From NCBI RefSeq assembly GCF_036409155.1, contig NZ_JAZGLW010000001.1, forward strand, positions 2,046,001 to 2,110,000: a stretch of DNA of 64,000 nucleotides, given 5' to 3'. Below the pieces are notes generated by a model, which had not been told where the DNA came from, searched no databases, and saw only the letters and a list, made by a program, of their open reading frames with translations. Source of the DNA: Mycobacterium sp. 050128 (GTDB lineage Bacteria > Actinomycetota > Actinomycetes > Mycobacteriales > Mycobacteriaceae). The position numbers and the translations under genes were made by a program. Numbering within the stretch: the first letter of the stretch is position 1; each line of letters opens with the position of its first letter. This document shows positions 39,040-58,128 of this stretch, in pieces.

Positions 39040-39363
39040 ATGTCGCCGTTTGGCGAGAACCTCGATGTCGTCCCCGGTTTGGTCTTTCACGCCGCGACCG
39101 AGGGACGCGGGCAGCACGAGGAGTTGGCGGTCACCTACGCATCGACTCAATCGCAGGGGTGGGACGCCGAGGGTGGATGGGTCGGCAGTTCAGCCGTGGC
39201 CCTTTCGGGATTGCTCGATCGATGGCAGTCCGACGCGACGCAGCACCACGCGATGCTTAACCATCATCACGAGGGCCTCGATGCCGCGGCCTCCGGATTT
39301 GTCGACATGGAGCGGGACAACGCTCAGCAGCTGAGTCGCGTGTATGGCGCTGACCCTCGCTGA
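39040..39363 (+). CDS. small WXG100-like protein
   Basis: The 107-residue acidic, helical protein has a Trp-x-Gly turn in GGWVGSSAVALSGLLDRWQ flanked by predicted helices, the layout of WXG100/ESX-type small proteins. It overlaps the start of the DUF1023 hydrolase gene by 20 bases in another frame, so the two are co-translated. It may be a secretion partner or chaperone for that hydrolase. No ESX secretion machinery lies in the window. Confidence 0.7.
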   Translation: MSPFGENLDVVPGLVFHAATEGRGQHEELAVTYASTQSQGWDAEGGWVGSSAVALSGLLDRWQSDATQHHAMLNHHHEGLDAAASGFVDMERDNAQQLSRVYGADPR

Positions 39364-41134
39364 TATCGAAATCTGGGATGTCGCAGCGATCGATCAGGTG
39401 TTTGCCGCGGCGATGTCTCGGGCCGAGGGCGCGCAGAACACCGGAAACACCGTTGGTGACTTGCTGTCCTTCATCCCGTGGGACGGTCGGGCCGCCGATG
39501 CGGCGCGGGATTCGGCCCATCTCATCAAAGTCACGCTGAACGACCACGGAGATCAGTGCCGGCGCGTCGCGGAGGCGGCGAAGAAAGCCTCGGCCGAGGT
39601 CGCCGACCTGAAATACCGACTGTCGAAGATCAAAGGCGATGCCGCGGAGGCGTTCCTGCGCATCGACGACCAGACCGGCGCGGTCAGCCCGAAGACCGCC
39701 GTATTGACCGCCAGCCAGCTTCAGCAGCAAAAGGCCGTCATGCAGGATCTCGTGGCTCGCATCAAGCAGCTGCTCGCCGATGCGGACAACGCCGACCGCG
39801 ATCTGGCCACCGCCATCCAGACGGCTGACGGGGCTGCCACCACACCCGCCGATCCGGCCGGCGGCCAGCCGCCCCGGCCGCTGGCGAAGCCTCCACCGGA
39901 TTCGGCGTCGCCCGCGGACCGCAAGAAGTGGTGGGACGGCCTGACCCCGCAGCAGCAGGTGGACTTGCTGAGCCAAGACCCTGCCGCAATCGACAAGGAA
40001 GGGATTCCCGCCGATATCCGGGATGCCGCCAACCGCATTCGCCTGCCGCATGAGCTTGCGGTAGCGAAAACAACCTTGGATACCGCCCGCGGCAACGAGT
40101 CCCGGTATTGGGAGTACGTGAATACTCATCATGGCGATGCACCGCCCGGGATGACCGGTGACCCCGTGGCAGCACTCGCCAACGCGGAGTCCCGGTACAA
40201 CGATCTGATCGGCATCCAGAGTGCGATGTATCCGACGAACCCGGACGGAACGCCACGCAAGATCGATCCGAGCGATCGCCGCAGCCTTGTTACGCTGGAT
40301 CCGGCTTCGAATCCGCGACATGTGTTCGGCGCCATCGGGATCGGGGACGTCGACCGCGCCGCACATGTCGGGGTGACGACCGGTGGTGTCGCCACCAATG
40401 CCGGCAGCCTGCCCGGCATGGTTGATGAGGCGACCAATCTGCGGCACACCACGGCCGAGATCCTCACCCATGCCGGAGACCCGAACCCGGGGTCGGTGGC
40501 CACGATCGCGTGGGTGGGTTACGAGCCGCCGGCCGATTTGTCCGACATGCGAGTCTTGGGCGATGGCTTGGCGCGCGACGCCGCGCCGCGCCTGAACGGC
40601 TTCTTCAATGGGCTGGCCGCGACGACGCAGAACCCGCATCAGGAAATCACGGCCTTCGGGCATTCCTACGGGTCCCTGGTCACCAGCCTCGCCCTGCAAC
40701 AAGGCAGCCCGGTGAAAAACGTCGTCTTCTACGGTTCGCCGGGACTGGAATTGGGTCAGCCCGGCGATCTGCACCTCGCACCCGGGGGCCACGCGTACTA
40801 CGAACAAGCGGACGCCGACCCGATCGTGTGGGTACAGCGCGGGCCGGCCATTTTGGATGCGGTACCCATCATCGGTCCGGAGCTTAATTTGCTCCTCGGC
40901 AGCGGAGACACCGGTGAGCGCTTCGGGGAGACGCCCAACCAAATGCCCGGGATCTCGCAGTTGTCTACATCGGCCGGCGTTGATCCAGTACTCGGAGAGC
41001 AACGCGCCGGCGCCAGCGGACATGCGGAATACCCGCGCGATGACGGGACCGCCAACCACAATTTGAGGATGTCCGGGTACAACTTGGCGGCGGTGTTATC
41101 CGGAATCCAGGGCGCGACGAAGACGGGGAATTAA
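39344..41134 (+). CDS. DUF1023 alpha/beta hydrolase with helical N terminus
   Basis: The 596-residue protein has an N-terminal ~170-residue helical/coiled region reminiscent of ESX substrates (WDVAAIDQVF to DADNADRDLATAI), a Pro-rich linker (~165-200), and a C-terminal DUF1023 hydrolase domain. The nucleophile elbow is GHSYGS (~residue 441). It lies between a WXG-like gene and a lipoprotein gene with almost no spacing. Export by a type VII system is an inference from architecture. The substrate is unknown. Confidence 0.85.
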   Translation: MALTLADIEIWDVAAIDQVFAAAMSRAEGAQNTGNTVGDLLSFIPWDGRAADAARDSAHLIKVTLNDHGDQCRRVAEAAKKASAEVADLKYRLSKIKGDAAEAFLRIDDQTGAVSPKTAVLTASQLQQQKAVMQDLVARIKQLLADADNADRDLATAIQTADGAATTPADPAGGQPPRPLAKPPPDSASPADRKKWWDGLTPQQQVDLLSQDPAAIDKEGIPADIRDAANRIRLPHELAVAKTTLDTARGNESRYWEYVNTHHGDAPPGMTGDPVAALANAESRYNDLIGIQSAMYPTNPDGTPRKIDPSDRRSLVTLDPASNPRHVFGAIGIGDVDRAAHVGVTTGGVATNAGSLPGMVDEATNLRHTTAEILTHAGDPNPGSVATIAWVGYEPPADLSDMRVLGDGLARDAAPRLNGFFNGLAATTQNPHQEITAFGHSYGSLVTSLALQQGSPVKNVVFYGSPGLELGQPGDLHLAPGGHAYYEQADADPIVWVQRGPAILDAVPIIGPELNLLLGSGDTGERFGETPNQMPGISQLSTSAGVDPVLGEQRAGASGHAEYPRDDGTANHNLRMSGYNLAAVLSGIQGATKTGN

Positions 41135-41135
41135 G

Positions 41136-41726
41136 GTGAATCGGCGGTTCTATCCGGCGGTGTTGGCGACCGCCGCCGTGTTGTCTTCTTGTCACTACGA
41201 TCCGTATCCGTCGCCTCGCGCGGGTCAGCCGTCCGCGACGGTGCTGGAATCTCAACTCAACGAACGTGATTCGCTCCAAGAGGCCGCCAACGACCTGATC
41301 GGCGTGGCAACCGCGATGCGCGATGCGGTTCAACGGGTCTACCCAGCAGCCCAGTGGTCGATCGCGCCGGCTTTGCCGGGCGGTCAGTCCGGCTGCGAGC
41401 CGCCGTTTACCTTTTTGTCCGGATCGATCTACCAGCTACCGGAGTGGTTGGCGACGGCTCCGGTATCAGCGGGTGATCGCGATGCGGTGATCGCCGCTGC
41501 CGCCGACGTACTGCGGGCTCACCACGCTGAGCACGTCGTCGTGACCAACGGCCAATCGGTGAGCGCGGAGTTGCCCGCCGAGCACGGCGGAATCCGGTTG
41601 ATCATCAGCCCTCCGGCCGGCTCGAATCCCGCACTGATGAGTGTCAAAGGAGCGACCGGATGTCATCATGCGGCGCCCGGCCCAGGTCCGTGGGACATCC
41701 CGCCGGCACCCACGTCGCCACGGTAG
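41136..41726 (+). CDS. putative lipoprotein
   Basis: The 196-residue protein has a short signal peptide and lipobox-like LSSC (Cys19), then a helical and beta region with two internal cysteines (GQSGCEPPF, GATGCHH) and a Pro-rich end. GTG start lies 1 base after the hydrolase stop, so the three genes form one operon. It could be an immunity or envelope partner of the hydrolase; I do not recognise a characterised homologue. Confidence 0.8.
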   Translation: MNRRFYPAVLATAAVLSSCHYDPYPSPRAGQPSATVLESQLNERDSLQEAANDLIGVATAMRDAVQRVYPAAQWSIAPALPGGQSGCEPPFTFLSGSIYQLPEWLATAPVSAGDRDAVIAAAADVLRAHHAEHVVVTNGQSVSAELPAEHGGIRLIISPPAGSNPALMSVKGATGCHHAAPGPGPWDIPPAPTSPR

Positions 41727-41753
41727 CGAGTTAACTCGTCAGCCGGGATCTAC

Positions 41754-41768
41754 TGGGCCGGCGGCCCA
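41754..41768 (+). terminator. short hairpin after the lipoprotein gene
   Basis: TGGGCC (41754-41759) and GGCCCA (41763-41768) form a 6-bp stem with a 3-base loop, 28 bases past the lipoprotein stop. There is no T tract, so termination is only a suggestion. Confidence 0.3.
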
Positions 41769-41886
41769 AGCCGGCTCGACGAACTAGAGGCCGGCGCCTA
41801 TCGAAACGGTCCCATCCAGACGCGTGACGGCAACGAATCACCGGGCGGACACCGCGAGGCTTCGCCCGAAACGTTGAGAGGAACAC

Positions 41887-42009
41887 GTGCCCGCACGCTC
41901 AACCGGAGACGACGCTGGCGCCGCCGTGCCCGCGTGCAGAGCACCTTCCGGGGTTTCAATGACCGCCGTCTTCGGATCGCTGGTCGACGCTTCGGATCCG
42001 GGGTCGTAG
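41887..42009 (+). CDS. possible 40-residue leader/small ORF before the antiporter gene
   Basis: A GTG at 41887 with GAGAGGA 5 bases upstream opens 40 codons ending in TAG, 3 bases before the antiporter ATG. The product has no recognised domain. Spacing suggests translational coupling, but coding status is unproven. Apart from this, the 286-base gap 41727-42012 shows only the short hairpin after the lipoprotein. Confidence 0.3.
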   Translation: MPARSTGDDAGAAVPACRAPSGVSMTAVFGSLVDASDPGS

Positions 42010-42012
42010 ATC

Positions 42013-43314
42013 ATGACCGCGGCTACCGCCATACATTTTTTTCTCGAACTGGCCGTCATCCTCGGAGTCTGCCGGCTCGTGGGACTTGTTTCGCAACGAC
42101 TCGGACAGCCGCAAGTCGTCGGCGAGATGATCGCCGGTGTACTTCTAGGCCCGTCACTGCTGGGGCGGGTAGCGCCAGGGCTGCAACATCAGCTGTTTCC
42201 GCCGGGAGCAGCTAACACTGTGCTCTACACCGCAGCACAGATCGGCTTAGTCCTGTACATGTTTCTCGTCGGGCTCAACTTCGACGTCAACCTGCTCAGA
42301 CATCGCGCCGGCACCGCGGTGGCAGTGTCGGCCGCGGGCATCGTCACGCCACTCGCCCTGGGGGCTCTCATCGCCGTTCCCCTTCTGGCGCAAGGATTTT
42401 ATTTCGAAAAGGGTGTCTCGCTCGTCCTGGCAATGATGTTCTTGGGTGCGTCGATTGCTACCACCGCTTTCCCTATGCTCGCCCGAATAATCTTCGAACA
42501 ACGGCTGTCAGGGACACCTTTAGGCACCCTCGCCCTGATATGCGGTGCAACCGATGACGCGTTTTCATGGTGCATCCTCGCGGTTGTTCTGGCCGTCCAC
42601 CGTGGCAGCCCCATGATGGCCGTCTCCGCAATTGTCGGCGGAATCTTCTACACGCTGTTGCTGTTGACCCTCGGTCGCCGGGCATTGGCTCGATTGGGCA
42701 CCAAATCGGAACGCGAGAATTCGGTGTCGGCATCGACGCTCAGCACGGTTCTGATTCTGCTCATGACCTGCGCGTGGTTCACCGACAGTATCGGCATATA
42801 TGCGATATTCGGAGCCTTCGTGCTGGGGGTTGCTATGCCTTCAGGACGCTTCGCTCACCAACTCACCGCGTGCCTCGAGCCACTCGTCACCACCCTGTTG
42901 CTGCCACTGTTCTTTGTGTACTCGGGCCTCAACACCCAGGTCGGTCTTGTCAACAGTGGGAAGCTTTGGCTGGTGGCGGCGGGAATCCTCGTCGTTTCGG
43001 TCGCGGGAAAGGGAGTCGCGTGCGCATTGGCCGCGTGGCTGAGGAAAGTGCCAGTTCGTGAAGCCATCGCCATAGGGTCACTCATGAATGCGCGCGGCTT
43101 GATCGAGCTCATTCTTCTCAACATCGGACTCCACTCCGGAATCATCACGCCGACGCTGTTCAGCATTTTGGTCTTGGTTGCCATCGTCACCACTCTGATG
43201 GCGACACCGCTATTCGAATGGGTATACGGTCGCCGGCGCGTAGACGAATCGCTGCCCACGGATGCGACTGGTGAGGACGCGGCCACTGAAGAGGTTCAAT
43301 TAGAGATTAGTTAA
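42013..43314 (+). CDS. CPA2-family cation:proton antiporter
   Basis: The 433-residue membrane protein has about 12 hydrophobic segments. The CPA2 features are GQPQVVGEMIAGVLLGPSLLG in the first helices, a GATDDAFSW segment with the paired acidic residues of electrogenic exchangers, and GSLMNARGLIELILLNIGL. It probably exchanges Na+ or K+ for protons. Such antiporters occur in several natural-product clusters. It heads a run of same-strand genes ending with an ABC exporter. Confidence 0.9.
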   Translation: MTAATAIHFFLELAVILGVCRLVGLVSQRLGQPQVVGEMIAGVLLGPSLLGRVAPGLQHQLFPPGAANTVLYTAAQIGLVLYMFLVGLNFDVNLLRHRAGTAVAVSAAGIVTPLALGALIAVPLLAQGFYFEKGVSLVLAMMFLGASIATTAFPMLARIIFEQRLSGTPLGTLALICGATDDAFSWCILAVVLAVHRGSPMMAVSAIVGGIFYTLLLLTLGRRALARLGTKSERENSVSASTLSTVLILLMTCAWFTDSIGIYAIFGAFVLGVAMPSGRFAHQLTACLEPLVTTLLLPLFFVYSGLNTQVGLVNSGKLWLVAAGILVVSVAGKGVACALAAWLRKVPVREAIAIGSLMNARGLIELILLNIGLHSGIITPTLFSILVLVAIVTTLMATPLFEWVYGRRRVDESLPTDATGEDAATEEVQLEIS

Positions 43315-43501
43315 GTAAAGATAATAGATTTCATTTCCGCCCCGGCGCTGCTGCGCGGTGGCGGCTCAAGTGCGTACGTCGGAGAGCCGTTGTCGCGCAG
43401 TGCGTTTAGCCAGGAGCACGGCGTCCCGGCGGGCTGCGACCGGCTACGTCACAAGTGTTGCCAGAAATGTATTTCCGTGTAAGTTCTTAACTATTAAGTG
43501 A

Positions 43502-45298
43502 GTGAATCATCGGCTGGGGGAGTTGAGACTTATGGACGCGCGAGCGCAGCTCTCAAAGTTGAGCGTGGACGCACGTGAGGAGTTGGCGCGCCGGATCGCG
43601 GGACTGTTGGAGACCGACGCAGACGCTCCCGACCACGACGTCACGATCATCGGCAGCGGTGTGGCGGGACTGACGCTGGCACTCGAAATCGGCACGGCAC
43701 GGCCTCAGACGCGCATCCTGATCGTTTCACCGACCTCGTATCCGGTACCCGAGATCACCCATACCGTCGGCGAGTCGACCGTGGAGGTGTCCGCCCATTA
43801 TTTTCGGGACCGTCTTGGCCTCACCGATCATTTGCAATCAGCGCAGCTACGCAAAATGGGCCTGCGCATGTTCTTCACTCACGAAGCCAACACCGATATC
43901 GCTGCGCGAATGGAGCTCGGCAGCTCCACGTTCGTCCCTCAAGTCACCTATCAGATCGATCGCGGCCGGTTGGAAAACGAACTCCACCAACGGTGCATGG
44001 CGCACGGTGTGCAAATCCTCAGCGGCCGAGTTGTCGACGTTGAGTTCGGTGTGGCGGGTCGGCCGAACACGGTCTCAGTGCAGAGTGGTGAGACGGTGAC
44101 GCACACGACGACTCGTTGGGTGGTCGATGCATCGGGACGAAACCGGGCGTTGTCGCGACGGCTGGGGTTGCGGCGCGCCAACGAGCACAACTGCAACGCC
44201 GTCTGGCTTCGCGTGGCAACGGAAATCGATGTCGGCCAATGGAGCGATGACCCGGCCTGGCAAGCGCGACTTGTCGAGGGCGACCGGGCGCTGTCGACCA
44301 ATCATCTTATGGGCGAGGGGTATTGGGTATGGCTGATCCGACTCGCATCCGGGTCGACCAGCGTCGGCATCGTCGCCGACCCAGCAGTGCACGAATTCGA
44401 CGATTTCAACACCCTCGCAAAGGCTTTGGCGTGGCTTGGCGACCGAGAGCCGCAATGCGCCGCGGTTCTGGCAGAGCACGAACATCTGATCAAAGATTTC
44501 CGGGTCATGAAGAACTACAGTCACGGCGCCACGCAGGTCTACGACGGCCGTAGCCGTTGGTGCCTCACGGGTGACTCGGGGGTCTTCCTGGATCCCCTGT
44601 ATTCCTCGGGACTCGATCTAGTAGCGATCGGTAACGGCCTCATCACGGACATGATCGCCCGAGAGCTCGACGGGGAAAACGTCATCGCCCGGGCCGCGGT
44701 GAGCGACTCCCTCTTTCGGTCCCTCACCGAGATGTGGCTGGCGGTGTATTGCCATCAATACCCGCTGATGGGCTCACCGGCCGTGATGTCGGCGAAGGTG
44801 ATCTGGGACATCGCGTTCTACTGGGGGTTTGTCGGCTTCTTGTACGTTAACGGTCGGTTTGTGAGTGTCGCGGACGATCCTCAAGTGGTGCCATACCTGG
44901 AGGGATTGATCACGCTGAGCAATCGCACTCAACGTTTCTTTCGGGAGTGGGCAGCGGTCGAAACCGCCCAGCCCTCAAGGCGATTCGTGGATTTGTACGC
45001 GCCGCTGAATTTCATGACGACACTGCACACCGCCATGATGGGTCAGCCCTCGGAATTCATCGCCGGGTTCGAGGCGAATTCTCAGTTGTTGCATCAGCTG
45101 GCGGGACAGCTGGTGGAAGCGGTCATTTCGGACAAGAGCAGTCGTTTCACCGAGGACAACGTCATGCGGCAGGCTCAGGCGTGGCAGCGCGATCCGTATC
45201 TACGTGAACTCCGTTCCGGTTACCGCCGACGGCAGACCGTCAATCCGATCAGTCACACCTGGTTGATCCAGACAACACCAGCACTCCAACTTCATTGA
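43502..45298 (+). CDS. flavin-dependent halogenase-like enzyme of the PKS cluster
   Basis: The 598-residue flavoprotein has the FAD fold GSGVAG (Gly51-Gly56), the GEST motif (residues 90-93), a WxW-type YWVWLIRL segment, and GDSGVFLDPLYSSGLDL. The last is the region that in halogenases reads DPxxSSG. These features fit the FAD-dependent halogenase/oxidoreductase superfamily. True chlorination needs the conserved Lys, which I cannot place. An N-terminal helical stretch (LSKLSVDAREELARRIAGL) precedes the fold. GTG at 43502 or ATG at 43532 may be the start. Confidence 0.8.
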   Translation: MNHRLGELRLMDARAQLSKLSVDAREELARRIAGLLETDADAPDHDVTIIGSGVAGLTLALEIGTARPQTRILIVSPTSYPVPEITHTVGESTVEVSAHYFRDRLGLTDHLQSAQLRKMGLRMFFTHEANTDIAARMELGSSTFVPQVTYQIDRGRLENELHQRCMAHGVQILSGRVVDVEFGVAGRPNTVSVQSGETVTHTTTRWVVDASGRNRALSRRLGLRRANEHNCNAVWLRVATEIDVGQWSDDPAWQARLVEGDRALSTNHLMGEGYWVWLIRLASGSTSVGIVADPAVHEFDDFNTLAKALAWLGDREPQCAAVLAEHEHLIKDFRVMKNYSHGATQVYDGRSRWCLTGDSGVFLDPLYSSGLDLVAIGNGLITDMIARELDGENVIARAAVSDSLFRSLTEMWLAVYCHQYPLMGSPAVMSAKVIWDIAFYWGFVGFLYVNGRFVSVADDPQVVPYLEGLITLSNRTQRFFREWAAVETAQPSRRFVDLYAPLNFMTTLHTAMMGQPSEFIAGFEANSQLLHQLAGQLVEAVISDKSSRFTEDNVMRQAQAWQRDPYLRELRSGYRRRQTVNPISHTWLIQTTPALQLH

Positions 45299-45392
45299 TA
45301 TTCAATAGGATTTCGCACAGCCCTCATCTCGGTGCTGCAAATTCGGCGTCGCGGCCGCCGATGCCCAAAGCTGTGCTACGTGGGGCGAAAGG

Positions 45393-48300
45393 ATGAGCAT
45401 GCCCACTGCGCACGACGCGCGCGAACCGTTGGCGATCGTCGGAATCGGGTGTCGATTTCCCGGCGATGCCGACACCCCGCAACGCTATTGGGACTTGCTG
45501 CGCAGCGGCATGGACGCCACCCGTGAGGTTCCCCAAACACGTTGGGACGCGGATAAATACTACGATCCGCACGCGGCAAAAGCCGGAAAGATGGTGACCC
45601 GCCGAGGCGGATTCCTGCGCGAGATCGACCAATTCGATCCGCAATTTTTCGGCATATCGCCTCGTGAGGCGCATCTGCTGGATCCGCAACAGCGTCTCTT
45701 ACTGCAGACCACGTGGGAGGCACTCGAGGATGCCGGAATACCCGCAGACCGCCTCGCCGGCAGCGAAGTCGGGGTATTCGTCGGCGGGTTCACGCTCGAC
45801 TATCAATTGCTGCAAAACCAAGGCAGAACCAGTCGCTACCGATTCAAGACCCATTCCGCCACGGGAATGATGATGACCATGCTGGCCAACCGCATCTCGT
45901 TCGCGTTTGACTTCCGCGGACCGAGCATGACCATAGATACGGCATGCTCGAGTTCGCTGGTCGCGGTACACCTTGCGGCGTCGAGTATTTGGAACGGCGA
46001 ATGCGCTCTCGCGCTTGCCGGCGGGGTCAACATCATGATCGGCCCCAACACCGCGATCGCCGAATCCAAAAGCGGGTTCCTGAGCCCCGACGGACGCTGC
46101 AAGGCTTTCGACGAGTCCGCTGACGGATACGCGCGAGGCGAGGGCGGCGCCGTCGTAGTCATCAAACCGTTGAAGCAAGCACTGAGCGACGGGGATGAAA
46201 TCTACGCCCAGATCCTGGGTACCGCGGTGAGTCAGGACGGCCGCACCGACAGCATCACCGTACCCAGCGCCCGGGCGCAGGAAGCGGCCATTGCCAGGGC
46301 ATTACGTGATGCCAACGTTCACCCCCACGACATCGGCTATGTCGAGGCGCATGGCACCGGAACCCCAGTCGGCGACCCGGTGGAGGTGCAGGCGCTCGCC
46401 CGCGCGTTGGCCGCCGGCCGGCCTGCAAACGATCCGTTGCTGATCGGATCGGTCAAAACCAATATCGGGCATCTTGAGGCCGGTGCCGGGGTGGCCGGAT
46501 TGATCAAAGCGGCCTTGGTCCTCAAGCACGCTTACATCCCACCGACTCTGCATCTCGAGACGCCGAATAGCCGGATGCCGCTAGTCAAATGGAACATCGA
46601 TATTCCCCGGACCGGTCGCGTGTTTCCGGATGTCAAACGACGGATCGCCGGGGTCAATTCTTTCGGCTTCGGCGGCACCAACGCGCATGTCGTGCTTGCC
46701 GAACCCCCGGAGCCGATCGGCGTGCCGGACCCCAAACCTTCGCCGCCGTTGCCGCTGGCCATATTTCCGATCTCGGCGCGCTCCGAGGAAGCGCTTGCGG
46801 CGACAGCCGACCAGCTGGCCCGATACTTGAGTGAACATCCCGACGTCACGGCGCAGGACTTCGGCTACACGCTCAGCCAACGTCGCTCACATATGAATTA
46901 TCGCCGTGCTGTCATCGCGGCAAGCACCGCTGACGCACGAGACCAGCTGCGAGGCCTCGCGGAAAGTGAGCGCGCGGTGGTGGGTCGCACACCAGCGAGT
47001 GCCCCCAAGGTGGCGTTTGTGTGTACCGGCATGGGCCCGCAGTGGTGGAAGATGTGCCGGGGACTCTTAGGCGTCTATCCGGCCTTCACCGACTGCATCA
47101 CACGATGCGATCGAGAGCTCTCCCGCTACGCTGACTGGTCGCTGATCGAGGAGCTGACAGCAGACGAGACCCATTCGCGGATGGCTGAAACGCATATCGC
47201 CCAGCCGGCCAACTTCGCAATCCAAGTAGCACTGGCCGCGCAATTTCAGGCATTCGGCATCACTCCCGACGCCGTGATCGGTCACAGCGCGGGTGAGGTC
47301 GCCGCGCACTACCTGGCCGGGGTGCTCACCTTCGAGCAAGCGATCCATGTGATCTACCATCGAAGCCGCCTGCAGCAGCGAACGAGTGGACTGGGGCGCA
47401 TGCTCGCCGTCGGTCTCGACGTGGAATCGCTCACCGCAATCATTGACGACACGGCGCTCGCCGACCACCGACAACGGATTTCCGTCGCCGCCGTCAACAG
47501 CCCGACCGCCGTGACGGTCGCGGGAGCCGACGATGCCCTGAATGATATTGCCCGTCAACTCGATCAGCGCCAGGTCTTCAATCGGTTCCTCGCGGTGCAG
47601 GTGCCGTACCACACCCACTACATGGAGGCGGTGAAAGACGAACTCTATGCGTCGCTGGACGGACTGTGCACGGCCGCAGCGTCGCTTCCGCTGTATTCCA
47701 CGGTGACCGGCGACCGGTTGGACCGCTACGCCGCAGGGGCCGCCTACTGGTGGCAAAACACCCGCGCCACTGTGCTTTTCGAACCGGCGGTGCGCCGGAT
47801 GCTCGAGGACGGGTATACCCACTTCGTCGAACTGGGCCCGCATCCTGTGCTGGCAACCTCGTTGGTCGAGATCGCCGCCTCCCAGCAGACCGACGTGGTC
47901 GTGCTGCCGGCGCAACGGCGCGATACAGACGACAGTCGCGCGCTGATGAATTGCATTGGCGCACTGCACTGTCACGGGCGCTCGATCGCATGGGACTCGT
48001 TCTTTGCCCAGCAGCACGCACGCCTGCTGAAGCTTCCGCCGTACCCGTGGCAGTCCAAGCGCTACTGGAACGAGACCCCCGAAGCGATCGAGGAGTTGCA
48101 CTACAAACCGGTACATCCGCTATTGGGGCAGCCGGTGAGCGCCATACACCCGACCTGGGAAGTCGAGCTGAGTGCTACCCGCATCCCGTTTCTCGCGGAT
48201 CATCAAGTGCAGGGAAGCGTCCTGGTGCCCGGGGCGGTATACGTCGAGATGGCCCTCGCCGCCGCCGCGGAAGCCTACGGATCGGCCGAGTACAGCGTCA

Positions 48301-50939
48301 ACAACCTGACGCTGCACCGCGCCGTCATCCTCGATGACACCTGCGATCCCATACTGCGGACCACCCTTGACCAAAACAGCGGCACACTGGAATTCGCTTC
48401 GTTCACAGCAACGGCCGGTGGGGACGTCAAGTGGACCATAACGGCCACCGCCGAGCTCAACACGCTGCCTCGGGCGCCGCGGCCGAATGACATCGTGAGT
48501 GGGGCAGGGGAGGCCGCCAGCATCGCCGGCGCCGAGTTCTACGCACGAACCCAAGCCGTCGGTTTGGCATACGGCGACGCATTTCGAACCGTCGCCGATG
48601 TCACTGCCGGAGAAGGGTGGGCCACGGCCCGGCTCATCATTCCGGCAGCGCTGCGCGAAACCCTCGACGCATTCCGCTTCCATCCCGCTCTCATAGACGG
48701 CGCATTCCAAACACTCTTGGGAACACCACTTTTCGAATCCGAGTCGAATGAAAGTCCCTATCTTCCAGTTCGCCTGCGGCACAGCGCCGTCTATCGTCGG
48801 CCCGAAGAACACATGACTGTGCACGTACGCGTCGTCGCCGCCAACGAGGACGAGATCGAAAGCGATATCACCATCACGGCTGAGCAAGGCGAGCCGCTCG
48901 CCGTATTCAACGGTTTCACCGTGCGCTCATTGGGCGCCGCGTCTCGGATGTCGCCCGAACGGGTGGACAAGGGTCTGCTGGAAATCGAGTGGGTGCCACG
49001 TCCGGACAGCCAACGTCCGCAACGGGCGGCGTCAACTCCGACAGCCGGTTGCTCATGGCTCGTGTTGGCGGACAACGCAGGCTTCGGGGCAACGCTCGCC
49101 GAGCAGATGCGGCGCTGCGGTGAACGCGTCTACACCGTTGGCCATCAGTCCGTAGCCGCGCTTAGCCGAGTCGACGGCGAGTACACGCTCGACCCGTCAC
49201 AGCCGGAGCAGCTGAGGCAGCTACTCCAAACTCAACTCGACCGTGAGGGTGGCCTCGCCGGGATCATCGACTGCTGGCCGCTTGATATTTCCTCGGAAAC
49301 AGACCACCGCCTAGGCCTTTTCGCGATACTTCACTTGGTCAAGGCTCTCGTAGACCATGACACCGTTGCACCACGCCTCTATGTGGTGACCGCCAATGCG
49401 CAGCCGGCGCTGCCCAGCGACACTCCGGTTGCACCGCACGCGGCCCTGTGGGGACTCGGCCGAGTGATCGGTCATCAAGAATTCGTCAAACACTGGGGCG
49501 GGCTCATCGACATCGACGAGCGCGACGACCAGGCCAACAGTGCTGTCCGCGTTTGCGAGCACATTCTCGACGGTGATCCCGAAGACCAGATTGCCCTCCG
49601 TGAGAGCGCGACATTGGTACCCCGTCTTCGGAAGAGCAGCACCCTGGCGGCCAAAACCTTTCCGACCAAACTTCCTCCCGACGCGACATACATCGTCACC
49701 GGCGGGGCTGGGGCTCTTGGTCGAGTTGTCGCAACCTACCTCGCCGAGCGGGGCGCGCGACATATTGCCCTGCTCTGCCGAAGCAAAGTTCCGCCAAGAG
49801 ACAGTTGGGCGCGGGTCGGACCCGAAGACCGGCATTACGCGATCATCGAAACCATCGGAAAAGTCGAGCGTCTCGGTGCCCGGGTGACCACCGCCAGCGT
49901 GGACATCACCGACGTCGACCAGGTTAAGTCGTGGATTGCCAACCATATTCGTCATGGCGGTGCGCCAGTGCGCGGAATATTCCACGCCGCGGGAGTCGTC
50001 GATGACAAACTCTTGGTGAACATGACCGAAGCCGACTTCGAGCGGGTGTTGGCGCCCAAGGTCACCGGCACCCGAGTGCTGCACGAAACCTTCCTGGAGC
50101 ACGATCTGGAGTTCTTTGTGATGTTCGGATCGGCCGGTTCGGTCATCGCCTCACCCGGTCAAGGCAACTATGCGGCGGCCAACGCGTATCTTGACGCCTT
50201 CGCGCACTACCGTCGAGCCAACGGGCTGCCGGCTCTCACCATTGGATGGGGACCTTGGTCAGTCGGCATGGTCAAAGAGCTGAAACTGGAGAAACTGTAC
50301 GCGCAGCGAGGAATTGAGCTCATCACTGCGGCAACGGGTACCAAGATTCTGGATCGGCTTATCAACCAGAAGCTCTCCGCCGTGATCGCATTCGGCGCCG
50401 ACTGGGCGCGGGTGCGCAGCGGGCTCGGCGGACAGTTGCCGCCAATGTTCTCCGAGCTGGGTGTCACCGAATCATCCTGCGCGGATACGGATTCGACATC
50501 GTCAATTCGAGAATTGCTAGCTGCCTGCCCAGAGGCCGACCGGTTCGGCCTGGTCGCTCGCCAAGTGCGCCAAGTCGTCTCCGCCGTCTTCGACCTGGCC
50601 GTCACTGATATCGCACCCGACGATGGACTCGACGACCTTGGCCTCGATTCAATGATGGCAATGGATTTCAGGTCCAGGATCAACGCATTGTTCGCCATCG
50701 ACGTGCCGGTGCTCGAACTGCTCAGGGGCGTCAGCGTCAACTCCCTTGCCGCGCGCATACTTGACGAGCTCGCGCCGGCCGTTCCGGACCGACATGCGTC
50801 CGGTGACGTGCCCGAGCTCACCACGGTGGATGAGGTCGATCGGCTGATCGAACGGTTATCCGAGACCGACCTGCGCGAAGTTCTTGCCGCACTGCAGGAA
50901 CAACCTGTCGAACAGGACACCTCGGAGGCGCACCCGTGA
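45393..50939 (+). CDS. type I polyketide synthase, KS-AT-DH-KR-ACP
   Basis: This 1848-residue single-module synthase has five domains. KS carries Cys185 (TACSSSL) and the EAHGTGT and KTNIGHLEAGAG histidines. AT has Ser632 in GHSAGEV. DH has His937 in HQVQGSVLVP and the Asp of LIDGAFQTL. KR has TGGAGALG, Ser in FGSAGS and the Y-x3-N of GNYAAAN. ACP has Ser1753 in LGLDSMMA. There is no ER and no thioesterase. The AT specificity motif reads VPYH where malonyl-type ATs have HAFH. The composition equals 6-methylsalicylate-type synthases, but I do not claim that product. The exporter starts 1 base after its stop. Confidence 0.93.
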   Translation: MSMPTAHDAREPLAIVGIGCRFPGDADTPQRYWDLLRSGMDATREVPQTRWDADKYYDPHAAKAGKMVTRRGGFLREIDQFDPQFFGISPREAHLLDPQQRLLLQTTWEALEDAGIPADRLAGSEVGVFVGGFTLDYQLLQNQGRTSRYRFKTHSATGMMMTMLANRISFAFDFRGPSMTIDTACSSSLVAVHLAASSIWNGECALALAGGVNIMIGPNTAIAESKSGFLSPDGRCKAFDESADGYARGEGGAVVVIKPLKQALSDGDEIYAQILGTAVSQDGRTDSITVPSARAQEAAIARALRDANVHPHDIGYVEAHGTGTPVGDPVEVQALARALAAGRPANDPLLIGSVKTNIGHLEAGAGVAGLIKAALVLKHAYIPPTLHLETPNSRMPLVKWNIDIPRTGRVFPDVKRRIAGVNSFGFGGTNAHVVLAEPPEPIGVPDPKPSPPLPLAIFPISARSEEALAATADQLARYLSEHPDVTAQDFGYTLSQRRSHMNYRRAVIAASTADARDQLRGLAESERAVVGRTPASAPKVAFVCTGMGPQWWKMCRGLLGVYPAFTDCITRCDRELSRYADWSLIEELTADETHSRMAETHIAQPANFAIQVALAAQFQAFGITPDAVIGHSAGEVAAHYLAGVLTFEQAIHVIYHRSRLQQRTSGLGRMLAVGLDVESLTAIIDDTALADHRQRISVAAVNSPTAVTVAGADDALNDIARQLDQRQVFNRFLAVQVPYHTHYMEAVKDELYASLDGLCTAAASLPLYSTVTGDRLDRYAAGAAYWWQNTRATVLFEPAVRRMLEDGYTHFVELGPHPVLATSLVEIAASQQTDVVVLPAQRRDTDDSRALMNCIGALHCHGRSIAWDSFFAQQHARLLKLPPYPWQSKRYWNETPEAIEELHYKPVHPLLGQPVSAIHPTWEVELSATRIPFLADHQVQGSVLVPGAVYVEMALAAAAEAYGSAEYSVNNLTLHRAVILDDTCDPILRTTLDQNSGTLEFASFTATAGGDVKWTITATAELNTLPRAPRPNDIVSGAGEAASIAGAEFYARTQAVGLAYGDAFRTVADVTAGEGWATARLIIPAALRETLDAFRFHPALIDGAFQTLLGTPLFESESNESPYLPVRLRHSAVYRRPEEHMTVHVRVVAANEDEIESDITITAEQGEPLAVFNGFTVRSLGAASRMSPERVDKGLLEIEWVPRPDSQRPQRAASTPTAGCSWLVLADNAGFGATLAEQMRRCGERVYTVGHQSVAALSRVDGEYTLDPSQPEQLRQLLQTQLDREGGLAGIIDCWPLDISSETDHRLGLFAILHLVKALVDHDTVAPRLYVVTANAQPALPSDTPVAPHAALWGLGRVIGHQEFVKHWGGLIDIDERDDQANSAVRVCEHILDGDPEDQIALRESATLVPRLRKSSTLAAKTFPTKLPPDATYIVTGGAGALGRVVATYLAERGARHIALLCRSKVPPRDSWARVGPEDRHYAIIETIGKVERLGARVTTASVDITDVDQVKSWIANHIRHGGAPVRGIFHAAGVVDDKLLVNMTEADFERVLAPKVTGTRVLHETFLEHDLEFFVMFGSAGSVIASPGQGNYAAANAYLDAFAHYRRANGLPALTIGWGPWSVGMVKELKLEKLYAQRGIELITAATGTKILDRLINQKLSAVIAFGADWARVRSGLGGQLPPMFSELGVTESSCADTDSTSSIRELLAACPEADRFGLVARQVRQVVSAVFDLAVTDIAPDDGLDDLGLDSMMAMDFRSRINALFAIDVPVLELLRGVSVNSLAARILDELAPAVPDRHASGDVPELTTVDEVDRLIERLSETDLREVLAALQEQPVEQDTSEAHP

Positions 50940-50940
50940 C

Positions 50941-51807
50941 ATGGCAGTCGCAATGACGGGCGCCGGTCGGTCATCCGCGGTACATGTTCGGGGGTTGTCG
51001 AAGGCGTATGGGCAACTCCGGGCAGTTCGCGACCTTGATCTCGACGTCGGCTATGGCCAAATCTTTGCGATATTGGGTCCCAACGGCGCAGGCAAGTCGA
51101 CGACCATCGAAATTCTCGAGGGACATCGGAAACGCGACGCCGGGCAGGTGCTGGTACTGGGTGAGGACCCCGGAACCGCCGGCCGGAGCTGGCGCGCCAA
51201 GATCGGCATCGTGCTGCAGGAGGCCAGTGACGCCGGGATGCTGACGGTGTCGGAAACCGTGCGCATGTTCACCAAGTCCTACGGCAAGGCCCGAGATCCC
51301 GCCGATGTGTTGGGCCTCGTCGGCCTCGACTCGGCATCCGGCTCGAAGGTCAGAACGCTGTCCGGCGGGCAACGTCGCCGACTTGACGTTGCGTTAGGCA
51401 TCATCGGCATGCCGGAAATACTGTTTCTCGACGAACCGACAACCGGCTTCGACCCGGACGCCCGTCGGCGCTTCTGGGACCTGATCAGACGGTTGGCGGC
51501 CGACGGGACGACGATTCTGCTGACCACCCACTACCTGGAAGAGGCTGCGGCCCTGGCGGATCGGGTAGCGGTGCTTGCCCACGGGAGCGTCGTGGCAATG
51601 GACTCGCCGGCACGACTCACCGGCTACGTCAGCTCGGCCGCGACGGTCCGTTGGATCGAAGGAGACACGGTTCACGTCGAGGAGACCGAGCACCCGACTG
51701 AATTGATCCGGCAGCGGTCGGAGGGTGGGGCGGAATTGGAGCAGCTGACGGTCTCTCGGCCCACGCTTGAAGACGCATACCTACATTTGATCGGCCACGC
51801 CGGATGA
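50941..51807 (+). CDS. DrrA-like ABC exporter ATP-binding protein
   Basis: The 288-residue ABC ATPase of the drug-resistance (DrrA/CcmA) type has Walker A GPNGAGKST, signature LSGGQRRRL, Walker B ILFLDEPTTGFD and switch His in TTHYLEEA. ATG at 50941 is 1 base past the PKS stop; the end overlaps the permease by 4 bases. It most likely powers export of the polyketide made by the upstream enzymes, or of a toxic intermediate. Confidence 0.93.
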   Translation: MAVAMTGAGRSSAVHVRGLSKAYGQLRAVRDLDLDVGYGQIFAILGPNGAGKSTTIEILEGHRKRDAGQVLVLGEDPGTAGRSWRAKIGIVLQEASDAGMLTVSETVRMFTKSYGKARDPADVLGLVGLDSASGSKVRTLSGGQRRRLDVALGIIGMPEILFLDEPTTGFDPDARRRFWDLIRRLAADGTTILLTTHYLEEAAALADRVAVLAHGSVVAMDSPARLTGYVSSAATVRWIEGDTVHVEETEHPTELIRQRSEGGAELEQLTVSRPTLEDAYLHLIGHAG

Positions 51808-52655
51808 AGGTAGATCAGGCCCGCCGTTCCGTTACGCATCGACCGGCTGAGCACGCGTCGCCGTTGCCCGGACCGCTGCGCATCGGAGTCTCACGAATCA
51901 TCCCGGAGCTGAAGATGTTTTATCGTCGGCCCGAACAGCTGGTTCTTACCTTTTCGATGCCGGCGGTTATCGGAATCTTGTTGGGTTCGATCTTCTCGAC
52001 CAAACTGCCCAATAGCGACACGAGTACCGGCGCCGTGATCGCGGCAAGCATCTTGGCCTACGGGATTCTGTCGACTTCGTTCATCAATCTGGGCATCAGC
52101 ATTGCGGCCGACCGCGAGTCCGGCGCGCTGCGGCGACTTCGAGGGACACCGACCACTGCCGTCTCCTATTTCGTCGGCAAGATATTTCTGGTCGCCGCCG
52201 CCAGCCTCGCCGAGGCCGTTGTCCTTCTGACAGTCGGGGTGACCGTCTTCAAGCTGCGCCTGCCTACGGACGCCTTCGGATGGTTCACGCTGACATGGGT
52301 GTTTCTCTTGGGGATCCTCAGTTGCTCGCTGTTAGGAATATTTGTCAGCAACTTGGCCAGCAACGCCGTCTCGGCGGCTGTGATAACCAATGGTCCGGCG
52401 GTGGCATTGCAGTTCGTTTCCGGCACGTACGTGCCGCTGATGGCGTTGCCCGGCTGGATGTTGACGCTCGGATCGTTGTTCCCCGTGAAATGGATGGCGC
52501 AAGGGTTTCGCTCGGTGCTGCTACCGCCGGAGATGGCAGCATTCGAACCGGCCGGCAGCTGGGAGCATTGGACGACATTCTTCGTCCTGACCGCATGGAG
52601 CCTGTGCGGCTTGTTCGCGTGCCTTCGGGTATTTCGGTGGTCGGAGAGGCGCTAG
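51804..52655 (+). CDS. DrrB-like ABC exporter permease
   Basis: The 283-residue ABC-2 permease has six hydrophobic helices, the conserved ADRESGALRRLRGTP loop after the second helix, and a GTYVPLMALPGWM segment typical of DrrB-like proteins. The ATG overlaps the ATPase gene by 4 bases. It is the last gene of the PKS run and ends 6 bases from the convergent Rv3572 homologue. Confidence 0.92.
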   Translation: MKVDQARRSVTHRPAEHASPLPGPLRIGVSRIIPELKMFYRRPEQLVLTFSMPAVIGILLGSIFSTKLPNSDTSTGAVIAASILAYGILSTSFINLGISIAADRESGALRRLRGTPTTAVSYFVGKIFLVAAASLAEAVVLLTVGVTVFKLRLPTDAFGWFTLTWVFLLGILSCSLLGIFVSNLASNAVSAAVITNGPAVALQFVSGTYVPLMALPGWMLTLGSLFPVKWMAQGFRSVLLPPEMAAFEPAGSWEHWTTFFVLTAWSLCGLFACLRVFRWSERR

Positions 52656-52661
52656 CCCGGC

Positions 52662-53198
52662 CTACGAGAACGTCGTGACCGCGCAGGTGCTGGGCGAGGT
52701 GATGTTGACGCCGCTGTAGACCACCTGAATGTGAGTGCAGGTGATGACGTTCTCATCCGTCTTGGGCTGGCCCGTGCCCCAATCGGTGGAGTCGATGCGT
52801 CCGGTCGTCTGGTATTTGTCCGGTGGGCCTTCGCCGAAGTAGACCGTGGTGATCTCGTCGGTACCCATCGATTTCATCACCCGCTCGTACTGCCCGTTGG
52901 CGTGCGCGTCCAGGTAGGCCATCCGGTTGTTCGACCGGATCTCGGTGGTCTGGCGTGCCCACAGGCCGGGTGGAAAGCCGATCACGCCGCCGTCGGGGGT
53001 GCGGGTGTCGGCCCCGGCGACGAAGTCGCAGTGGCCATCGGACTTGAAGCAGTTGAGGAACATGTGCGTTTCGAGCTGGTTCGGCCCGTCGAGGGGAAAC
53101 AACGTGGTAGCGGTGTTGCTCGCCGCGCCGGCCGCGGGAGCCGGCAGAAAAGTCAACATCAGTCCGACGGCCGCCAACCCGGTTACCGATCGCATCAT
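52662..53198 (-). CDS. secreted conserved protein (Rv3572-like)
   Basis: The 178-residue exported protein has a signal peptide (~1-25, ending AAGAAS) and a beta-rich mature domain with several cysteines (FLNCFKSDGHCDF, VITCTH, TSTCAV-like end). It has no catalytic motif that I recognise. The position directly downstream of kshB on the same strand matches Rv3572. ATG at 53198 (or 53195) is chosen because the signal peptide begins there; the frame is open to 53237. Confidence 0.85.
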   Translation of the reverse strand: MMRSVTGLAAVGLMLTFLPAPAAGAASNTATTLFPLDGPNQLETHMFLNCFKSDGHCDFVAGADTRTPDGGVIGFPPGLWARQTTEIRSNNRMAYLDAHANGQYERVMKSMGTDEITTVYFGEGPPDKYQTTGRIDSTDWGTGQPKTDENVITCTHIQVVYSGVNITSPSTCAVTTFS

Positions 53199-53245
53199 CG
53201 GCGATTCCTTCCGTCGAACCCCTCGAGCGAAACCCAACTCCGCGA

Positions 53246-54340
53246 CTATTCGTCGTACGTGACTTCTACCGAATCAGATTCCGGGTGAGATTGACAGGCC
53301 AGAATTAGCCCCTCGTCGAGGTCCTGCTGCTCGAGCACGTCGTTGACCTCCATGTTGACTTTGCCGCTGCGCAACGTGCAGGCGCATGCCCCGCAGTGGC
53401 CCTCCCGGCAGGAGAACGGCGCGTCGAGGCCCTTGGCAAGCAGCACGTCGAGCAGTTTGGCGCTGCGCGGCCACGACACGGTGTGGGTCTCGCCGTCCAG
53501 TTCCACCACCGCGGTGGCCGGCGGCTGATCGCCCTCGTCGGTGTCCTCGATCGTCACCGCGGCGAACGGATCGGAATCCAGCGACTTGAACACCTCGATA
53601 TGCACCTGTGGCGCAGGCACTTCCAGCGTCTCCAGCGCCTGGCGGGCCGCGTCCATGAACGGGCCCGGTCCGCAGATGAAGGCGTGCCGATCGGTGAACG
53701 GCGCGGCCAGCTTCGCCAGCGCCGCGGCGCCGGGCAGACCCTGCAGCGATTCCAGCCAGTGCAGCACCGTGAGCCGGTCGGGATACTTGGCGGCCAGCTC
53801 GCGCAGCGCATCGGCGAAGATCACCGAGCCTTCGTCGCGGTTGGCGTAGACCAGCGTCACCTGGCCGCTGCCCTCGGACAGCGCCGACTTGCAGATCGAC
53901 ATGATCGGGGTGATCCCGCTGCCGGCGGCCAGCAGCAGGAAATCCTGGTCGAGCGTCTTGGGGACGAAGTTGCCCGACGGGGCCAGCACGTGGATCCGCA
54001 TGCCCTGGTGTGCGTTGTCGCACAGCCAGTTGGACGCGTATCCGTCCGCGGTCCGTTTCACCGTGACAGTGAGCGCATCATCGGTGAACGGCGAGCTGCA
54101 CAACGAGTAGCAGCGCGCCACCGAGCCGGTACGGTCGCTGGGCACCCGCAACGTCAGGAACTGGCCGGGCGCGTAGCGCAGCCGCTCCGGCGGGATCTGC
54201 GGGTCGCCCGACGCGTCGGGCACCGCGAACACCAGCGAGCGTGCATCGCCGGTTTCGGCGACGACCTCGGCGATCTGCAGTTCAAGGACGTGGTCGCCGA
54301 GCGGCTCGTCGGGTGCTTGGTCCAGATCGGCTTCCGTCAA
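53246..54340 (-). CDS. kshB: 3-ketosteroid-9-alpha-hydroxylase reductase KshB
   Basis: Passes electrons from NADH to the Rieske oxygenase KshA, which hydroxylates the steroid at C9 and opens ring B. The 364-residue protein has a ferredoxin-reductase FAD domain (RCYSLCSSP), an NAD domain (LLLAAGSGITPIMS, CGPGPFM) and a C-terminal plant-type [2Fe-2S] domain (CREGHCGACAC...C). TTG at 54340 is the start, supported by AAGGGAGGG upstream. It is divergent from hsaA, with two KstR operators between. Confidence 0.95.
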   Translation of the reverse strand: MTEADLDQAPDEPLGDHVLELQIAEVVAETGDARSLVFAVPDASGDPQIPPERLRYAPGQFLTLRVPSDRTGSVARCYSLCSSPFTDDALTVTVKRTADGYASNWLCDNAHQGMRIHVLAPSGNFVPKTLDQDFLLLAAGSGITPIMSICKSALSEGSGQVTLVYANRDEGSVIFADALRELAAKYPDRLTVLHWLESLQGLPGAAALAKLAAPFTDRHAFICGPGPFMDAARQALETLEVPAPQVHIEVFKSLDSDPFAAVTIEDTDEGDQPPATAVVELDGETHTVSWPRSAKLLDVLLAKGLDAPFSCREGHCGACACTLRSGKVNMEVNDVLEQQDLDEGLILACQSHPESDSVEVTYDE

Positions 54341-54365
54341 GACCCGCCCTCCCTTTCATAACAAC

Positions 54366-54379
54366 TAGAACATGTTACA
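54366..54379. promoter_or_regulatory. KstR operator near kshB
   Basis: TAGAACATGTTACA fits TnnAACnnGTTnnA, 26 bases upstream of the kshB start on the opposite strand. It probably represses kshB. Confidence 0.85.
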
Positions 54380-54434
54380 GAAAACCCGATTCATATCGCT
54401 ACCAGGCGCAGGAATACCCTTGCTCGACACGAAT

Positions 54435-54448
54435 CAGAACATGTTCTA
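54435..54448. promoter_or_regulatory. KstR operator near hsaA
   Basis: CAGAACATGTTCTA matches the KstR motif except for C in place of the first T. It lies 51 bases upstream of the hsaA start and probably represses the hsa operon. Confidence 0.85.
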
Positions 54449-54498
54449 GTCTGCTGTGTAAGTCCACTGAGTAAGTCTGGCCCAGGAGGCAAACCTAA

Positions 54499-57547
<3,049 letters not shown>

Positions 57548-57561
57548 CTTCGGGGCCCACC

Positions 57562-58128
57562 ATGACCGCCGAGCCAATCGACCCGCGCACGTTCCGCAGC
57601 GTGCTGGGGCAGTTCTGCACCGGGATCACGATCATCACCACCGTGCACGACGACGTCCCAATCGGCTTCGCGTGCCAGTCCTTCGCGGCGCTATCGCTGG
57701 ATCCACCGCTGGTGCTGTTCTGCCCCACCAAGGTGTCGCGGTCGTGGCAAGCCATCGAGGCCAGCGGCCGCTTCTGCGTCAACATGCTGACCGAGAGCCA
57801 GAAACACGTCTCGGCCCGGTTCGGATCGAAAGAACCCGACAAGTTCGCCGGAATCGACTGGCACGCATCAGAACTCGGCTCGCCGATTATCGACGGATCA
57901 CTTGCCCATATCGACTGCACGGTGGCATCCGTGCACGACGGCGGCGATCACTTCGTGGTGTTCGGTGCGGTGCGGTCGCTGTCCGAGGCGCCGAAGATCA
58001 AACCGCGCCCGCTGCTGTTCTACCGCGGCGAATACACCGGGATCGAGCCGGACAAAACGACGCCCGCTCAGTGGCGTGACGACCTGGAAGCCTTCCTCAC
58101 CGCGACGACCCAGGACACCTGGCTATAG
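57562..58128 (+). CDS. hsaB: flavin reductase HsaB
   Basis: Supplies reduced flavin to HsaA. The 188-residue protein has the flavin-reductase fold with GFACQSFAALSLDPPLVLFCPTKVSRSW and DGGDHFVVFG. ATG at 57562 starts MTAEPIDPRTFRSVLGQF. It is the last gene of hsaA-D-C-B here. In M. tuberculosis nat follows, but here a gene on the opposite strand comes next. Confidence 0.95.
   Translation: MTAEPIDPRTFRSVLGQFCTGITIITTVHDDVPIGFACQSFAALSLDPPLVLFCPTKVSRSWQAIEASGRFCVNMLTESQKHVSARFGSKEPDKFAGIDWHASELGSPIIDGSLAHIDCTVASVHDGGDHFVVFGAVRSLSEAPKIKPRPLLFYRGEYTGIEPDKTTPAQWRDDLEAFLTATTQDTWL

Follow-up and report, generated by a model that had tools for sequence, protein, structure and literature searches.

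What do the five genes lodged between fadE34 and the Rv3572 homologue of a mycobacterium make, and do they serve the cholesterol locus that surrounds them? The window in which we addressed this question is a 64,000-nt stretch of Mycobacterium sp. 050128 (GCF_036409155.1, contig NZ_JAZGLW010000001.1, 2,046,001-2,110,000 of the forward strand). Positions 42013-52655 of the window hold five open frames, all on the + strand, encoding a CPA2 antiporter, a halogenase-like flavoprotein, a polyketide synthase (PKS), and the DrrA and DrrB parts of an ATP-binding cassette (ABC) exporter. A preliminary description of the DNA had given this five-gene, one-strand content, and the open reading frames (ORFs), Pfam and NCBIfam agree on it, with the CPA2, DrrA and DrrB NCBIfam models matching below their cut-offs. 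The five genes form a compact, horizontally mobile and self-contained cassette. With moderate confidence, we propose that the cassette makes and exports an oxidatively modified polyene.

The five genes are conserved as a unit

Loci were found by scanning genome contigs with the flavoprotein, and the best 80 of 114 were kept; linkage is therefore conditional on a flavoprotein-based choice of loci, PKS copies without a flavoprotein lying outside its scope. Sixty-six of the 80 were of the mycobacterial type, including L012, labelled as an Ilumatobacteraceae metagenome-assembled genome (MAG), and L065 and L068, which come from one assembly. All five genes were present in 59 of the 59 untruncated mycobacterial-type loci (59/66 overall), and in the remaining seven (L003, L008, L021, L045, L053, L056 and L068) a contig end falls within or beside the cluster. 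The flavoprotein, PKS, DrrA and DrrB genes had a single order and strand in all 59 complete loci. No sixth family comes near this breadth: the largest real one besides the five occurs in 7 loci. Two bigger neighbour groups, of 11 and 10 loci, were produced artificially by the ORF picker, from an ORF opposite DrrA and from PKS stubs of the short loci L081-L090. Because every untruncated locus keeps all five genes, the set exceeds chance and is a conserved unit. A lack of joint conservation in any other genome would have refuted the preliminary description, and the complete loci speak clearly to the contrary. The L012 contig carries a mycobacterial-type cassette that falls within the mycobacterial clade, and it is either misbinned or the result of a recent transfer.

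The cassette is mobile and the cholesterol locus is an insertion site

In the window, 14.3 kb separate fadE34 from the KshB-like reductase gene. A fadE34 match was found in 34 relatives, and in 30 of them the KshB-like gene lies on the same contig; judged from coordinates, the spacing was below 2 kb in 24 of these 30 and comprised 4-19 kb of other DNA in the other six. The gap between fadE34 (which ends at 38944) and the Rv3572 homologue (which starts at 52662) thus appears to be an insertion-prone site. The closest relative in the flanks (G031; fadE34 92%, KshB 95%) has no flavoprotein match. In G691 the flavoprotein (93%) lies 1.9 kb from fadE34, and the loci L001, L002 and L057, which have the cassette at the same place beside fadE34, group with the window in one clade (Shimodaira-Hasegawa-like approximate likelihood ratio test, SH-aLRT, 100). 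Base composition also differs across the boundary. The five cassette genes have a GC content of 0.59-0.64 and a third-position GC content (GC3) of 0.68-0.76, compared to a GC3 of 0.84-0.90 for six flanking genes, whose names, other than HsaA, are assumed or follow the preliminary description. At other loci the GC contrast was weak, with lower values inside in 44/55 and a mean difference of 1.1 points. The 59 complete blocks fell into 32 neighbourhood groups defined by shared left- or right-hand neighbour families, an approximate number, since gene calls were heuristic and contig ends can inflate it by making a nearby locus appear to be the only one of its kind. The empty site in relatives, the lower GC3 and the 32 neighbourhood groups together bear out the earlier view that this is a transferred, self-contained cluster.

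That view had also placed the cluster in the cholesterol locus, and here a functional tie did not hold up. Among the scanned loci the cluster lies beside fadE34 only in L001, L002 and L057, plus G691, and we therefore rejected a tie to cholesterol catabolism; the cholesterol locus is simply an insertion site for the cassette. A reductase-like ORF at 57328-58128, which we take to be HsaB, was not adopted as the flavin partner, because, among the loci compared, even the neighbouring hsaA lies beside the cassette only in L057; HsaB itself was not searched for. At a length of 18 bases or more, a search of 40500-54500 for flanking repeats gave no inverted ones and only two direct ones, both short and chance-like. 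A tRNA gene lay within 1.5 kb of one of the 59 blocks, and no Rfam family reached its gathering score in the window.

The polyketide synthase is probably iterative

Pfam domains confirmed a partly reducing, single-module synthase without a thioesterase, as had been proposed. The dehydratase (DH), ketoreductase (KR) and acyl carrier protein (ACP) domains occupy residues 908-1184, 1431-1623 and 1724-1789, and neither an enoylreductase (ER) nor a thioesterase gave a Pfam match in the protein. Catalytic residues of the ketosynthase (KS), acyltransferase (AT), DH, KR and ACP domains are kept in 62-63 of 63 rows, the catalytic H and D of the DH in all 63. A 49-row KS tree placed the window KS together with its orthologues and the Pseudonocardiaceae locus L059 in a 19-row clade (SH-aLRT 98, no bootstrap). 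The clade also holds two iterative PKS (iPKS)-nonribosomal peptide synthetase (NRPS) proteins of the polycyclic tetramate macrolactam (PTM) type (L093 and L097), and it includes non-PTM synthases, namely a Tsukamurella PKS adjoining an NRPS and synthases of Deinococcus, Persicobacter and Paenibacillus; L094 failed the 300-column filter, and the tree held no NaPDoS reference set. Eighteen other KS regions of the same genome fall outside the clade, as does a Nostoc KS that was the top score outside the family (53%, 462 bits). L093 encodes a fatty-acid hydroxylase, a KS-AT-DH-KR-ACP-C-A-T-TE protein, an amine-oxidase-type flavoprotein and a zinc dehydrogenase, presumably a PTM gene set. The window, L093 and L097 share the AT signature VPYH, and L059 and Deinococcus have VPFH. 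In the KR, the 'LDD' position is variable, which is why we assign no stereotype to this domain. According to PMC11724479 and PMC9582728, polyene chains are what PTM synthases produce. Known members of the group work iteratively. The grouping of the KS with iterative tetramate-macrolactam-type synthases suggests that the window PKS is probably iterative and, we infer, malonyl-using and polyene-forming.

The synthase nevertheless belongs to none of three known systems that it resembles. It shares with PTM iPKS-NRPS proteins, such as IkaA of ikarugamycin, a KS-AT-DH-KR-ACP module, the VPYH signature and a KS in one starred clade, although this clade also holds non-PTM synthases. PTM clusters, however, have an NRPS module, a thioesterase, a fatty-acid hydroxylase and amine-oxidase-type flavoproteins, whereas the window has an antiporter, a halogenase-like enzyme and DrrAB; membership was rejected because the window PKS lacks the fused NRPS module with thioesterase seen in L093. 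In enediyne PKS, the KR precedes the DH, as stated in PMC7692728, in contrast to the DH-KR-ACP order of the window, which led us to reject that membership. DUF1702, a family marked in enediyne clusters, is also absent from the mycobacterial cassette. The mycobacterial synthases that resemble mycocerosic acid synthase (MAS) are, like the window PKS, stand-alone and without a thioesterase, and MAS is its best PDB sequence match. MAS has an enoylreductase domain. The absence of an ER Pfam match excluded the window PKS from this group, and its KS stands apart from those of the other PKS of its own genome.

The flavoprotein has a predicted halogenase fold

An AlphaFold2 (AF2) model of the flavoprotein had a predicted local distance difference test score (pLDDT) of 88 and a predicted TM-score (pTM) of 0.86. 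In a Foldseek search with this model, the first 45 rows were 39 halogenase chains and six chains of 3nix. The best sequence matches were also halogenases, at low score (PltA, E 2e-16), and ChlB4 was among the closest by both sequence and fold. The flavin motif GxGxxG is present as GSGVAG (residues 51-56), its last G being G in 34 of 91 rows of the family, A in 56 and a gap in one. Halogenases need a conserved lysine (PMC7336383). K118 of the window protein is found in 36/36 rows of alignment A2; it aligns with the KKYG lysine of ChlB4 and the QKFG lysine of 3nix and lies opposite another lysine in the PltA alignment. The assignment of the active-site lysine in ChlB4 and PltA is presumed.

Of the two further motifs, Fx.Px.Sx.G is present (F362, P365, S368 and G370), with F in 90 of 91 rows and P, S and G in all 91. 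WxWxIP is altered: the window reads W275-x-W277-x-I279-R280, with arginine for proline. Among 64 mycobacterial rows this last position is R in 63 and P in one. Of the 27 other rows, 24 have P there, and the three with R are L096 (itself mycobacterial), L066 and L059. Two flavoproteins of L094 are unlike the family and were dropped from later counts. The flavoprotein thus resembles the halogenases ChlB4, PltA, CmlS, CndH, CtcP and Bmp2 in predicted fold, lysine and Fx.Px.Sx.G, but, like nearly all its mycobacterial relatives, differs in the R of WxWxIP and in its low sequence score. Because of the altered motif, we file the protein as halogenase-like only. The earlier suggestion of a possibly halogenated product therefore keeps its support from fold, lysine and Fx.Px.Sx.G and loses that of WxWxIP; halogenation by this enzyme is plausible, judging from motifs and model.

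An antiporter is always kept and comes in two types

In NapA, an Asp-Asp pair and a lysine form the ion site. NapA (4bwz) was the best PDB match of the window antiporter (E 4.5e-19), with these residues aligned; D181, D182 and K333 are all present. Across 66 cluster antiporters, D182 and K333 occur in 66/66, and D181 in 28/39 of type A (including the window), 25/25 of type B and 2/2 of the outgroup. Type A, the type of the window, lies upstream; of the 59 complete loci, 27 have it on the cassette strand and 7 in divergent orientation. Type B lies downstream in the other 25/59, is 43-47% identical to the window antiporter, and groups with antiporters of the Lentzea and Pseudonocardiaceae clusters. 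Each complete locus has one type, and none of L001-L080 has both. On the flavoprotein+PKS tree, type B requires 7 changes when the outgroup is included, 3 or more of them forced by starred branches, and 6 when it is not, and type B as one clade (24 rows) was rejected (approximately unbiased test, p-AU 2e-72). Exchange between types, or loss from an ancestor carrying both, would each fit this pattern.

The cassette always keeps an antiporter, of either lineage and on either side, which suggests that it needs cation/proton antiporter activity and that the role is obligatory. The reason is perhaps immunity to the product, which we prefer, with assistance in export as the alternative. A bolder form of this idea, which we regard as doubtful, is that the five genes form a minimal, roaming cassette for both production and immunity, whose product, an oxidised or halogenated polyene, would upset cation/proton balance; the CPA2 antiporter would be a dedicated, exchangeable immunity factor, swapped between two distant lineages while the rest stays fixed. 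If true, product class and self-resistance logic alike would, to our knowledge, be undescribed in mycobacteria, and more than one in four of the genomes sampled from the genus would carry them. The recurrent antiporter exchange itself offers a clean, testable hypothesis on how a producer survives its own product.

Proposed pathway and alternative products

The product is probably a small unsaturated compound that is made, modified and exported by the cassette, which would also provide self-protection. In the pathway that we propose, the stand-alone KS-AT-DH-KR-ACP synthase would iterate, probably on malonyl units, and a chain would grow on its ACP as a conjugated polyene, because the synthase lacks an ER. 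The halogenase-like FAD enzyme, receiving reduced flavin from the host, would oxidatively modify the chain, possibly while it is ACP-bound, with halogenation slightly likelier than other chemistry. Since the cassette has no thioesterase, the chain would be released by transfer or hydrolysis via a host enzyme; the preliminary description had also considered release by the flavoprotein. The DrrAB-type ABC pair would then export the product, and the CPA2 antiporter would shield the producer by keeping cation/proton balance, or would aid export. One observation weighs against this proposal: the Deinococcus member of the KS clade carries zinc-dehydrogenase domains resembling an ER, and the KS clade alone therefore leaves the level of reduction unsettled.

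It is quite possible, at somewhat under an even chance, that the flavoprotein of the same cassette is not a halogenase and instead hydroxylates, epoxidises or otherwise oxidises the chain, giving a halogen-free product. This is compatible with a polyene and draws on the altered WxWxIP; the invariant lysine, the retained Fx.Px.Sx.G and the halogenases that head both the sequence and the fold matches speak against it, and WxWxIP is missing from some halogenases. A different product altogether, an unsaturated acyl chain feeding a mycobacterial envelope lipid in the manner of MAS and without a diffusible metabolite, is unlikely. In its favour are the best PDB match, the absence of a thioesterase from MAS-like systems too, and the transport of mycobacterial lipids by exporters of the DrrAB type. 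However, the PKS has no ER, its KS stands apart from the 18 others of the genome, the lack of a further widely shared family across loci means that no acyltransferase or ligase is shared, and a related Pseudonocardiaceae cluster combines DUF1702 with three flavoproteins.

Less likely still is a small aromatic acid of the methylsalicylic type, chlorinated by the flavoprotein as is thought for ChlB4 in chlorothricin. 6-Methylsalicylic acid (6-MSA) synthases have the same domain order, with a TH domain at the position of this DH. ChlB4, one of the closest matches, is postulated to act on 6-methylsalicylate, and residues 8-1656 match the PKS of 8i4y/7wvz in a single stretch, an entry labelled only 'beta-ketoacyl-ACP synthase I'. 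Yet the KS falls with PTM-type iPKS, though in a tree that held no aromatic iPKS reference, and the catalytic H and D of the DH are intact in every row. We continue to favour the oxidatively modified polyene.

Related clusters outside mycobacteria

Flavoprotein relatives with 49-55% identity come from Lentzea (L066), Nocardia (L067) and the Pseudonocardiaceae bacterium of L059; those from deltaproteobacterial, planctomycete and other MAGs share 40-46%. The L059 cluster combines a type B antiporter and a PKS that is 49% identical with three flavoproteins and four DUF1702-family genes, one called by Pfam and the rest by similarity. In L066 there are three DUF1702-family genes, an antiporter and three flavoproteins, one of which is cut. 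L067 has two flavoproteins, a partial antiporter and four DUF1702-family genes; the fetched stretches of L066 and L067 contained no PKS. The DUF1702 genes form runs of three or four, with two or three halogenase-like flavoproteins nearby (L059:3-3575, L066:1745-5499 and L067:5667-9527). A figure legend of PMC7692728 marks the DUF1702 family in enediyne clusters, and in combining flavoproteins with DUF1702 proteins these three relatives resemble enediyne cassettes.

Further afield, a Janthinobacterium plasmid carries a phosphopantetheinyl transferase (PPTase), an antiporter, a flavoprotein (39%), an Asp/Asn hydroxylase, a thioesterase and a multi-module PKS, and in the planctomycete loci L079 and L080 two flavoproteins stand in tandem and the PKS (33%) is larger. 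Taken together, flavoprotein and PKS, in some cases joined by an antiporter, appear to be long-standing partners, and the five-gene form of mycobacteria is the most compact version among those compared here. Deltaproteobacterial relatives of the flavoprotein lie near radical S-adenosylmethionine (SAM) proteins (L071:1344-2519 and L073:7487-8977), one like TIGR04158 (3-methyl-2-indolic acid synthase) and one of the B12 type like TIGR04072 (lipid biosynthesis), both below cut-off.

Distribution and novelty

The flavoprotein (E <= 1e-40) was found in 84 of 296 sampled genomes of the genus. Restricting the sample to the 292 genomes with a completeness of 90% or more and a contamination of 5% or less left 82 carriers, the window's own genome being included in both counts. 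Among the carriers are Mycolicibacterium neoaurum (L048) and M. chubuense (L035), both environmental. A sample of 396 genomes from the phylum gave four carriers (E <= 1e-30), all of this genus and again including its own. Three of the 84 carriers (G580, G526 and G558) have one in-frame TGA in the flavoprotein match, and one mycobacterial genome has a second, distant copy (37% identity; G647:C13:8479-9828).

Mycobacterial polyketide genes are mostly tied to envelope lipids and siderophores. Searches of open papers aimed at such a cluster turned up none that describes one by title or abstract, in line with the earlier statement that no mycobacterial cluster with this set was known to have been described; the accessible part of PMC10517868 makes no mention of halogenases. 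We regard the cluster as a variant of the iterative type I PKS cluster. A compact cassette kept as a unit in many chromosomal settings, and in 82 of 292 good genomes, suggests a widely used, overlooked metabolite.

Gene coordinates and neighbouring genes

DrrB overlaps DrrA by 4 bases. From the sequence, DrrA probably starts at the ATG at 50941, directly behind the PKS stop (50937-50939), rather than at the upstream TTG (50884) of the mechanical ORF list, and a possible start of the flavoprotein is residue 11 (43532), the point from which many orthologue matches run. NCBIfam matches to ClmS, QhpG, DrrA and DrrB were far under cut-off and were not used for naming enzymes.

Table 1. Position of the cassette genes and of the adjacent insert in the window
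Feature	Position	Strand	Evidence
CPA2 cation/proton antiporter, type A, transmembrane domain only, 433 aa	42013..43314	+	PF00999 193 bits; TIGR00932 139 bits (cut-off 238)
Halogenase-like FAD enzyme, 598 aa	43502..45298	+	PF04820 45 bits; AF2 model; Foldseek
Stand-alone PKS KS-AT-DH-KR-ACP, 1848 aa, without ER or thioesterase	45393..50939	+	Pfam domains
DrrA-like ABC ATPase, 288 aa from ATG	50941..51807	+	PF00005; TIGR01188 231 bits (cut-off 312)
DrrB-like ABC-2 permease, 283 aa	51804..52655	+	PF01061 86 bits; TIGR01247 48 bits (cut-off 223)
Alpha/beta hydrolase (PF06259, 596 aa) then LppA-family lipoprotein (PF16708), separate insert outside the cassette	39344..41726	+	Pfam

The hydrolase and lipoprotein of the separate insert recall what we take to be the Rv2542-lppA pair of M. 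tuberculosis. In L001, L002 and L057, fadE34 and the antiporter stand too close together to leave room for this insert, and the same is true of fadE34 and the flavoprotein in G691. The GC3 of the pair is 0.78 (hydrolase) and 0.72 (lipoprotein).

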